Shown in pieces: positions 1 to 2,551 of a DNA stretch of 64,000 bases; the first letter of the stretch is position 1; each line of letters opens with the position of its first letter. Below the pieces are notes generated by a model. The model was not told the origin of the DNA, did no database searches, and worked only from the letters and a program-made list of their open reading frames with translations. The DNA is from Ignavibacteriales bacterium (lineage in GTDB: Bacteria; Bacteroidota; Ignavibacteria; UBA10030; SZUA-254). The DNA is taken from contig JACRMQ010000006.1 of NCBI GenBank assembly GCA_016214905.1, positions 385,008-449,007 on the forward strand, given 5' to 3'. The translations under genes and the position numbers were made by a program.

Positions 1-47
1 ATGCACCTTTGGCGCAGATATTAGGATTTCGGTTTTTTACAAAAGTT

Positions 48-1259
48 ATGTCTAAAAGTAAAAAAGTTATAGAACATTATCGGCACGTAATCGATGAATT
101 TAAATCGAGCGATATCTGTAAAGTTGAACGGATAATTCTTTCTCCTCAATCTGCAGAGATCGATGTTGAATTTCCGAAAGGTTCTCCTTCTAAAGAAGTG
201 TTGAACTTCTGCGCGAATAATTATTTAGGACTTTCAAATCATCCCGCGCTGGTTGATGCCGCGCGAAAAGGATTGGAACAGCACGGTTATGGGATGTCAT
301 CCGTCCGGTTTATCTGCGGTACTCAAGATATTCATAAGGAATTAGAACAAAAGGTTTCGGAATTTCTTGGGACCGAAGACACAATCCTATACTCATCATG
401 CTTCGATGCAAATGGCGGTGTGTTTGAAGCGTTGCTTGGAGAAGAGGATGTAATTCTCTCGGATGAATTAAATCACGCTTCTATTATCGATGGTATTCGA
501 TTGTGCAAAGCCCATCGCTATCGTTACAAACACAACGATATGAACGATCTTGAGATTCATCTCAAACAGTCGATGGATAGAAGATTCAGGATGATCGCGA
601 CTGATGGTGTTTTTTCGATGGATGGTGAACTTGCAAAGCTACCTGAACTTGTCGCGTTAGCAGAAAAATATGATGCGATTTTAATGGTAGATGATTCGCA
701 CGCCACCGGTTTCATCGGTAAAAAGGGAAGAGGCACTCCTGAACATTACGGTGTTATGGAGAAGATAGATATCATTACAACAACGCTCGGGAAAGCTCTC
801 GGCGGTGCATCGGGCGGTTGTGTATCGGGGAGTAAAATATTTATAGATGTTTTGAGACAAAAGTCGAGGCCATACATTTTTTCAAATACTGTCAGTCCGG
901 TAGTGGTTGCCGGAACAATAAAAGCTATTGAGTTGTTGGAACAATCAACAGAGCTTCGTGACAAACTTGAAGAGAATACGAAATATTTCCGTCAAAAAAT
1001 CAAGGAAGCAGGATTTGAAATTATAGATGGATTTCATCCGATTGTGCCAATCATGATTCATAATTCAAAAATTGTACAACAGATGGCGCGCGATTTATAT
1101 TATGAAGGTATTTACGTCATCGGATTTTTCTATCCCATTGTTCCGAAAGGTAAAGACAGGATAAGAGTGCAGATCTCCGCGACTCATGAAAGGCATCACA
1201 TAGACAAAGCGGTTGATGCGTTTACGAAGGTGGGTAGGAAGCTTGGGGTAATTAAATAA
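48..1259 (+). CDS. kbl: Glycine C-acetyltransferase (2-amino-3-ketobutyrate CoA ligase)
   Basis: PLP-dependent alpha-oxoamine synthase that cleaves 2-amino-3-ketobutyrate with CoA to glycine and acetyl-CoA, the second step of threonine breakdown by threonine dehydrogenase. The fold-type I pattern is complete: an 'NNYLGLSNHP' substrate-entry motif, 'DDSHATG' (PLP pyridine contact) and 'TTLGKALGG', whose lysine at about residue 249 should form the Schiff base. The frame is open to the window edge and a TTG occurs at 9, but the ATG at 48 gives 403 residues, close to the usual 395-400. The related KAS/SPT/BioF enzymes are the alternative, but the overall sequence reads as KBL. No threonine dehydrogenase is visible; it could lie just left of the window. 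Confidence 0.93.
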   Translation: MSKSKKVIEHYRHVIDEFKSSDICKVERIILSPQSAEIDVEFPKGSPSKEVLNFCANNYLGLSNHPALVDAARKGLEQHGYGMSSVRFICGTQDIHKELEQKVSEFLGTEDTILYSSCFDANGGVFEALLGEEDVILSDELNHASIIDGIRLCKAHRYRYKHNDMNDLEIHLKQSMDRRFRMIATDGVFSMDGELAKLPELVALAEKYDAILMVDDSHATGFIGKKGRGTPEHYGVMEKIDIITTTLGKALGGASGGCVSGSKIFIDVLRQKSRPYIFSNTVSPVVVAGTIKAIELLEQSTELRDKLEENTKYFRQKIKEAGFEIIDGFHPIVPIMIHNSKIVQQMARDLYYEGIYVIGFFYPIVPKGKDRIRVQISATHERHHIDKAVDAFTKVGRKLGVIK

Positions 1260-1298
1260 TCCTCACCCTCAAGGGGTCGACTAAAAAGAAAATATTTC

Positions 1299-1364
1299 TG
1301 GTAGCCGCAGACTTTATGTCTGCGAAAGCATAACAGAAACGCAACCTGAAGGTTGCGGCTACCA
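1299..1364. repeat. Y-shaped double-hairpin extragenic repeat 1
   Basis: An outer inverted repeat TGGTAGCCGCA (1299-1309) / TGCGGCTACCA (1354-1364) encloses two perfect small hairpins, GCAGAC-tttat-GTCTGC (1307-1323) and GCAACC-tgaa-GGTTGC (1341-1356). The whole could fold as a three-way junction in DNA or RNA. It lies between kbl and mrp. This is the organisation of a paired REP/BIME-type element. Flanking C/G-rich fragments (CCTCACCCTCAAGGGG at 1261 and GGGTAGGGAAGAGGGT near 1388) may be remains of another repeat. No REP-associated transposase is in the window. Confidence 0.7.
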
Positions 1365-1462
1365 CCTAAATCTTATTTATTAGTGAACCCTGGGTAGGGA
1401 AGAGGGTTAGAATTGGGACACAAGATTTAAATATAAAATTGTACATCAATTAGAAAAAGAAA

Positions 1463-2551
1463 ATGAAAAAACCATTAACAGAATCAAATATATTAGAAGC
1501 ATTAAAAATAGTCCGCGATCCCGACTTGAATAAAGATATTGTATCTCTCAATTTTATCAAAGATATAAATATCGAAGGGAAAGATGTAAGTTTTAAAATT
1601 GAACTTACAACTCCTGCCTGTCCGGTACGCGATGAATTTAAAAAACTTGCCGAGACTGCCATTCGCAATCAAATTGAAGGAGTTGGAAATCTTGCAATCG
1701 AGATGACGGCGAGTGTTCGCGCAAACAACATCCAGCAGCATATTGATCTGCTTCCCAATGTTAAAACAACAATTGCAGTTGCAAGCGGCAAAGGCGGCGT
1801 TGGCAAATCAACGGTTGCTGTTAATCTTGCAGTTTCGCTTGCGCTTGATGGTGCAAAAGTGGGTTTGCTGGATGCCGATATTTACGGACCGAGTATTCCA
1901 TTGATGATGGGAATAAATGAACGTCCAAATATCCAAAATCAAAAATTAGTCCCGCTTGAAGCGCACGGTGTTAAAGTTATGTCGATCGGATTCCTCGTTG
2001 ATCCATCGCAGGCGGTGATTTGGCGAGGACCGATGGTCAGCGGTGCCGTCAAACAGTTTATGTCGGATGTGGACTGGGGTGAGCTCGATTATCTTGTATT
2101 CGATCTTCCTCCGGGTACGGGCGATATTCATCTTACACTTGTGCAGACAATTCCACTGACAGGTTCGGTAGTCGTAACAACACCACAGGATATTTCTCTT
2201 GCCGACGCGCGAAAAGCATATGCAATGTTTGAGAAGGTAAACGTTCCGGTTCTTGGAATTATTGAGAATATGAGTTATTATATATGTAACCACTGCGGAA
2301 ACCGTGAAGATATTTTCCACACAGGCGGTGGAAAGAAAGCTGCCGGTGAGTTAGGTGTTCCTTTTTTAGGTGAGATACCTATTTACACTCCGATCAGGAT
2401 TGGCGGAGATGTTGGTAAACCGATAGTTATATCGGAACCTGATGCTGAGCAAAGCAAAATCATCCGGCAGATTACACGGAACATGGCGGCGCAATTAAGT
2501 ATTGCTCAATTATCAGGAAAATTAAATCAGAAAGTTGAGATTAGTTTGTGA
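1463..2551 (+). CDS. mrp: Mrp/ApbC/NBP35-family Fe-S carrier ATPase
   Basis: Cytosolic P-loop ATPase that holds and transfers [4Fe-4S] clusters to apoproteins. The N-terminal ~90 residues form a MIP18/DUF59 domain ('ALKIVRDPDLNKDIV', with 'TTPACPV'). A MinD-like ATPase follows, with the deviant Walker A 'SGKGGVGKS' at about 107-115 and the 'DLPPGTGD' motif. The C-terminal CxxC 'CNHCG' near residue 275 bridges the cluster in the dimer. At 362 residues it is the normal length for DUF59-Mrp fusions. The next gene is an NFU scaffold, so the pair forms a small Fe-S delivery module separate from the suf operon at 30-38 kb. Confidence 0.95.
   Translation: MKKPLTESNILEALKIVRDPDLNKDIVSLNFIKDINIEGKDVSFKIELTTPACPVRDEFKKLAETAIRNQIEGVGNLAIEMTASVRANNIQQHIDLLPNVKTTIAVASGKGGVGKSTVAVNLAVSLALDGAKVGLLDADIYGPSIPLMMGINERPNIQNQKLVPLEAHGVKVMSIGFLVDPSQAVIWRGPMVSGAVKQFMSDVDWGELDYLVFDLPPGTGDIHLTLVQTIPLTGSVVVTTPQDISLADARKAYAMFEKVNVPVLGIIENMSYYICNHCGNREDIFHTGGGKKAAGELGVPFLGEIPIYTPIRIGGDVGKPIVISEPDAEQSKIIRQITRNMAAQLSIAQLSGKLNQKVEISL

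Follow-up and report, generated by a model that had tools for sequence, protein, structure and literature searches.

According to the excerpts of PMC3116915 considered here, RAYTs are regarded as the agents that spread REPINs. In the excerpts of PMC3733652, REPs of the GTAG type are assigned to Proteobacteria, Cyanobacteria, Chloroflexi and the PVC group, and not to Chlorobi, Bacteroidetes or Ignavibacteria, and a section of PMC6006769 reports REP-flanked tnpA genes in Bacteroidetes. The same excerpts of PMC3733652 describe the TIRs of Pseudomonas putida and P. fluorescens as degenerate GTAG-1 units combined with unrelated stem-loops, and also CGTC-type repeats for which no associated transposase gene was found. 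IS1272 is placed in the IS1182 family, some members of which target palindromes; it carries 16-bp ends, produces no target duplication and replaces inverted repeats (PMC5678879, in excerpts). No title or abstract start among the matches listed, a scope outside which subscription papers mostly fall, deals with REPINs of Ignavibacteria or with REPINs placed in IS1182 frames. The words of the terminal inverted repeat (TIR) described below led to no paper relevant by title among the matches listed, those recognised being primer lists. In PMC5317091 the REP phrase is confined to the reference list, and the word Ignavibacteri is absent from the portion of PMC12306157 (RepRanger) covered here.

Sequence, fold and copies of the repeat

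The repeat analysed here was found in a stretch of 64,000 nucleotides (the window) from an Ignavibacteriales bacterium (assembly GCA_016214905.1, contig JACRMQ010000006.1, positions 385,008 to 449,007). In agreement with the original prediction, the ORF list places it between a putative kbl gene (9-1259, plus strand, 416 aa) and a putative mrp gene (1463-2551, plus strand, 362 aa), and no ORF of at least 60 aa overlaps it. A perfect 11-bp inverted repeat with the arms TGGTAGCCGCA (1299-1309) and TGCGGCTACCA (1354-1364) encloses two hairpins, CGCAGAC-tttat-GTCTGCG (1306-1324) and CGCAACC-tgaa-GGTTGCG (1340-1357). The outer repeat, the perfect pairing of the hairpins and their loops of 5 and 4 nt had been described correctly before, but the stems, given as 6 bp, are actually 7 bp each. 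Because the CGCA/TGCG of the outer arms is also used by both inner hairpins, the full 11-bp closing stem competes with them. Folding of 1299-1364 (plus strand) predicts a three-way junction, as had been proposed, which consists of three 7-bp helices with the closing stem TGGTAGC/GCTACCA and a 15-nt linker. Its minimum free energy of −32.8 kcal/mol compares with an average of −15.34 for shuffled sequences (z −6.54), and none of 200 shuffles equalled it; the single-stranded DNA fold of the 119 nt from 1273 to 1391 has z −5.98 (0/200 shuffles).

Read from its own end, each half of the repeat consists of GTAG, a C and a hairpin, which is the plan of a GTAG REP. REP A (1301-1324, plus strand), recognised by the pattern and by exact copies elsewhere, has a 7-bp hairpin with the loop TTTAT and is separated by a linker (1325-1339, plus strand) from REP B (1340-1362, minus strand), which has a 7-bp hairpin with the loop TTCA and the opposite orientation. 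The two REPs thus stand head-to-head, and their stems are unlike (GAC vs. ACC). Of the 437 cells in an alignment of 24 related compact REPINs, 23 of them distinct, 97.7% are paired; versions of the alignment slid out of register pair at no more than 43%. Both-side changes occur in 10 cells (shuffled mean 1.0; 0/500 shuffles reach 10) and in 4 pairs (shuffled mean 1.0; 1/500 shuffles reach 4), counts that are no probabilities because the sequences share kinship. The relatives keep the REPIN fold with compensatory changes.

A blast search with 1265-1400 against the own genome revealed four further full copies in unrelated places (C4:159254-159367, C7:244085-244218, C7:675562-675697 and C3:39742-39862, the last two each matched in two pieces), one of them with 88% identity, and two half copies (C4:111414-111455 and C1:163879-163916). 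None of these four full copies is overlapped by an ORF of more than 89 aa, and all five copies, including that in the window, share the 15-nt linker, whose sequence is partly conserved, and AT-rich outer arms. Five full copies are a low number, but together with the matches in relatives they exclude a single copy without kin. Matches at an E-value of 0.01 or better were obtained in 11 of the 15 family genomes, the own genome counted. The REP-hairpin pattern exceeded its reversed control in G002 (34 vs. 2), G004 (38 vs. 5) and G014 (262 vs. 6), and reached only 6 vs. 2 in the own genome; at least one match was present in 153 of 245 genomes of a class sample, in many of them not above control. 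The exact REP A 24-mer was found in 41 stretches from other named genomes, which by title belong to Ignavibacteri- (19), Bacteroidetes or Bacteroidota (13), Chlorobiota (4), Zixibacteria (2), Chlorobiaceae, Melioribacter and KSB1 (one each). The assignment of the repeat as a GTAG-type REPIN (BIME), composed of two different REPs, is supported by these data, and as such the REPIN itself is a further member of an already known kind of repeat.

A second, longer GTAG REPIN family of about 100-130 bp with GCGGACATTT and CGCAATC arms was observed at L002, L010, L011, L017 and L025 of the own genome and at L057 and L188 of G001. Small two-hairpin cassettes were seen inside REP hairpin loops that are empty in sister copies, consisting for example of GAGCC..GGCTC plus CCGCC..GGCGG or of TGCC..GGCA plus TCCC..GGGA. 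In these nested palindromes, which occur in the own genome at L026 (C7:675578), L033 (C7:244085-244218), L005 (C3:39764), L013 and L036 and also at L196 of G004, the hairpin loop is used as a site.

RAYT genes near REPs in related genomes

No RAYT was matched in the own genome by PF01797, NF047646 or a three-RAYT profile at E up to 10, the last of these searches including no positive control genome. Among the 15 family genomes, 11 have PF01797 matches, and 200 of 245 class genomes have NF047646 matches at an E-value of 0.001, 104 of them above the cut-off. We built a clade profile from two RAYTs of G007 and one of G001, all three of which exceed the NF047646 cut-off, and applied it to all ORFs of at least 60 aa in the loci examined. 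Eight distinct proteins scored between 165.7 and 306 bits, with the next protein at 82.1; for the RAYT protein of L175 (G007), the sole PDB match was TnpArep (4er8).

All eight members of this clade have GTAGCCGC[A/G] hairpins within 1.5 kb in the loci examined, a figure that is biased, because three of the eight had built the profile and four of the loci (L137, L160, L163 and L164) were retrieved by means of the REP. The genes on G001:C34, G007:C107, G007:C204 and G011:C111 were found independently by PF01797, and the loci examined for this linkage cover only part of the PF01797 matches. At L160, REP A and REP B of the window occur letter for letter in two neighbouring REPINs upstream of the RAYT gene, and REP A recurs in a REPIN downstream of it; REP A is also present letter for letter in L137, L163 and L164. 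The same type of REP therefore flanks RAYT genes in relatives, which, together with the GTAG-tagged head-to-head hairpins and the dispersed copies, bears out the BIME-like REP pair of the original prediction; its proposal of a non-autonomous mobile repeat is likewise favoured.

The linkage does not extend to every genome: comparing the lists by eye, we saw none of the pattern-matched REPs of G002, G003 and G004 less than 1.5 kb away from a PF01797 gene, and the 7 kb scanned around the single RAYT-like gene of G014 contained no GTAGCCGC hairpin. G014 belongs to the same family and is rich in REPs (L184 and others). The RAYT-like genes at L116 (G003), L182 (G004) and L187 (G002) are flanked by another REP family with GTAGTAGCSRNTCACC-type hairpins, and in G001 units of the longer REPIN family stand on both sides of a clade RAYT gene.

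This genome has no detectable RAYT, which makes the window copy a probable inactive orphan, and its few, diverged copies likewise suggest that it is now inert. REPtrons may be deleted, as stated in an excerpt of PMC3733652, and we therefore keep the REPIN assignment despite the missing RAYT.

The 16-bp frame around the REPINs

Outside the GTAG, many REPINs have a sequence in common, which reads GGGGYTGWCYNAAAAG at the left end and as the complement of this at the right end; its distance from the GTAG is mostly 27-29 bp. Among 44 distinct compact REPINs, this frame is present on both sides in 23 and on one side in 6; leaving out nine REPINs fetched through the TIR, it is present on both sides in 14, on one side in 6 and on neither side in 15 of the remaining 35. 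Random positions carried it on both sides in 64 and on one side in 1023 of 20000 cases. With one mismatch allowed, the TIR pattern was also more frequent than its reversed control in the own genome (10 vs. 4), G001 (19 vs. 7), G004 (55 vs. 7) and G009 (32 vs. 0).

The window copy is among the six REPINs with a one-sided frame. Its left end GGGGTCGACTAAAAAG (1273-1288, plus strand; G000:C6:386280-386295) differs from GGGGYTGWCYNAAAAG by one mismatch, and its right end AGGGTTCACTAATAAA (1376-1391, minus strand, reverse complement) is degenerate, being identical to the left end at 11 of 16 positions and matched only with three substitutions allowed. The frame of the window copy therefore rests on its family. 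Delimited in this way, the whole element with its REPIN core spans 1273-1391, starts 13 bp after the stop codon of kbl and measures exactly 119 bp. The extent of 1299-1364 given in the original prediction is correct for the inverted repeat, but misses this larger span.

Searching viral contigs for GGGGYTGTCYNAAAAGT yielded 29 stretches, in three of which the TIR stands at the border of an IS1182-family gene. The gene of L335 codes for 527 aa (NF033551, E 3.9e-116), that of L336 for 328 aa, and L357 contains a gene remnant; only L357 has the TIR on both sides, with a single end visible in L335 and L336. From this position beside IS1182 genes, the 16-bp ends may be those of an IS1182-type element. 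Searches with the L335 and L357 proteins at an E-value of 0.001 detected no IS1182 gene in the other loci examined, including the other 26 viral stretches, and the TIR lists of four genomes, inspected by eye, showed no apparent pair at the spacing of an IS (1-2.5 kb). Direct repeats (2-9 bp) bordering framed elements, 72 of which were analysed, were no commoner than in shuffled sequences, indicating that there is no target duplication; this fits the mode of IS1272 and is weak evidence if taken alone.

The same frame encloses cores of several kinds. In 78 TIR pairs, a few loci giving two overlapping ones, we distinguished core classes by motif, which is a crude criterion: GTAGNCGC REPIN cores were present in 36 pairs (17 of them at 119 bp), CCTGAGCTTGTCGAAGG-type palindromes in 10 (8 at 119 bp), GTCATNC-type cores in 11 (4 at 129 bp), TCGACGACAAGTCGA-type cores in 5 (3 at 139 bp), a GTAGAG-type core in one (129 bp), and various others in 15. 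The GTCATNC cores appear similar to the TGTC/CGTC repeats described in the excerpts of PMC3733652. Similarity clustering of the framed cores had been tried and was rejected in favour of the motif classes, since its score threshold was too loose and left 63 of 82 cores in one cluster. The lengths of 42 of the 72 framed elements end in 9, namely 28 at 119 bp, which is the commonest length and that of the window span, 6 at 129, 5 at 139, 2 at 109 and 1 at 169 bp; because copies within a class share descent and some pairs overlap, these counts are not independent and serve as a lead rather than a test. Apart from these elements, single GGGGCTGTCTCAAAAGGGCAGCCCC hairpins and a near variant were observed at L277, L281 and L293 of G004, each followed by T-rich sequence directly after an apparent gene end, so that the frame end appears there in a terminator-like form without filling.

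We consider it reasonably probable that the REPIN is the core of a miniature inverted-repeat element 119 bp long, whose 16-bp ends are of the IS1182 type and which would be non-autonomous mobile DNA. A RAYT, as an HUH/Y1 transposase, would recognise the GTAG and hairpin on single-stranded DNA and spread bare REPINs, as in the relatives where REPINs flank RAYT genes. In the lineage of the window, the REPIN would then have become the filling of an IS1182-type MITE, and an IS1182 transposase may have moved the framed REPIN into intergenic gaps without target duplication, with the window copy left as an inactive orphan whose degenerate right end presumably once served as a functional one.

Competing explanations and known systems

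The main alternative, which we regard as clearly less likely but worth serious consideration, is a simple REPIN for whose spread a RAYT sufficed, with the outer similarity being an extension of the REPIN hairpin in this lineage that is unrelated to IS1182. It is in line with the degenerate right end of the window copy, with the 15 REPINs lacking the frame end on either side and with the loci containing a clade RAYT, where none of seven compact REPINs is framed on both sides and two are framed on one side. Against it are the same ends around non-REPIN cores, as 42 of the 78 TIR pairs lack GTAGNCGC, their occurrence at the IS1182 genes of L335, L336 and L357, and the numerous REPINs of G002-G004 with no Y1 gene near them.

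It is improbable that the repeat is kept mainly for a role in the kbl-mrp transcript as an RNA stabiliser, attenuator or terminator. Its position between two genes of the same direction (both plus strand), the stable RNA fold with compensatory changes in relatives and the known effects of REPs on mRNA (PMC3733652, in part) are consistent with such a role, but compensatory changes are equally expected of a DNA hairpin, and the other copies stand in unrelated places. At the Rfam gathering threshold, the sole match in the 64-kb window is a tRNA, with none on the repeat. In the 360 bp upstream of mrp and its start, GTAGNCGC was found in only 1 of the 15 family genomes, the own one (14 were readable; that of G013 is half masked and ends short of the gap), and G001 and G009 have a kbl-like end ahead of mrp but no REPIN. 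Because the site is not conserved, we set a conserved cis-acting RNA aside as the main account; the repeat may still play a role in the kbl-mrp RNA. Between mrp and the next gene, the window contains two further G+C-rich palindromes, CCCCTCATCGAGGGG (2585-2599) and CCCCCTTCAGAAGGGGG (2641-2657).

A chance palindrome is refuted by the fold statistics, the 88%-identity copy, the family matches and the covariation, and the only data in its favour are those of the bare word GTAGCCGCA, a count that proved uninformative as a test because it stayed near control both in the own genome (30 vs. 24 for the reversed word) and, with one mismatch, in the window (8 vs. a shuffled mean of 5.6, with 20 of 100 shuffles having as many).

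Returning to the REPIN in an IS1182-type frame, the sister species G001 offers an observation at the same site. Its kbl-mrp gap contains a 151-bp stretch with CTTAGTG palindromes, which starts 14 bp after the kbl stop codon (13 bp here) and has TIR-like ends matching each other at only 9 of 16 positions; a framed element of similar core exists elsewhere in G001 (L334). As a single weak example, this suggests that one inverted element stands at kbl-mrp where another does in the sister species. Matching of flanks in the loci examined gave no further clean case of different cores at the same site, three rows aside, and the rows mostly represented one region of the own genome duplicated at C1 and C7. 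In this duplicated region (C1 ~163-164 kb and C7 ~244 kb, flanks 89-95% identical), framed elements and members of the two REPIN families occur near one another.

We tentatively propose, as a doubtful extension, that an IS1182-type transposase may move elements of preferred lengths (119, 129 and 139 bp) with interchangeable head-to-head palindromic dimers, and possibly exchange one inverted repeat for another at the same site. Under this proposal, the fillings would include GTAG REPINs and GTCATTCC-type repeats resembling the CGTC/TGTC class of PMC3733652 (in excerpts), and the length steps come near one helical turn. If true, interchangeable fillings would couple the unrelated HUH and DDE transposase chemistries in the spread of bacterial palindromic repeats. 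The shared IS1182-type frame, the clustered lengths and the missing target duplication would provide a second route of spread that can be tested and that could account for REPINs where a genome has no RAYT, and the combination may reveal by what means repeats of this kind spread in these bacteria.

Packing a REPIN into an IS1182-type frame that other palindromic dimers share appears, in the literature covered, to be a novel variation. The following comparisons refer to the parts of the cited sources considered here. Like the REPINs of P. fluorescens (PMC3116915), the window element consists of two inverted REPs that form a single-strand hairpin, is dispersed between genes, is linked to RAYTs (here in relatives) and shows compensatory stem changes. 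Unlike them, it contains two different REPs with a 15-nt linker, has few copies and an IS1182-like frame, and resides in a genome in which no RAYT was found. With the BIMEs and GTAG-3 REP dimers of E. coli and other Enterobacteriaceae (PMC3733652) it shares GTAG REPs in head-to-head heterodimers, but the family in the window has other stems and framed copies. The TIRs and TIRtrons of P. putida and P. fluorescens (PMC3733652) are similar in joining GTAG units to other inverted repeats in many copies; these TIRs stand on either side of Y1 transposase genes, a GGGGWSAS motif being common to some of them, whereas the 16-bp ends of the window family frame the dimer and were found beside DDE (IS1182) genes. 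Compared by description, the IS1272/IS1182 family (PMC5678879) likewise has 16-bp TIRs, no target duplication and a link to inverted repeats, but IS1272 is 1.9 kb long and carries a transposase gene, whereas the window element is 119 bp long, contains no gene and has a palindromic filling.
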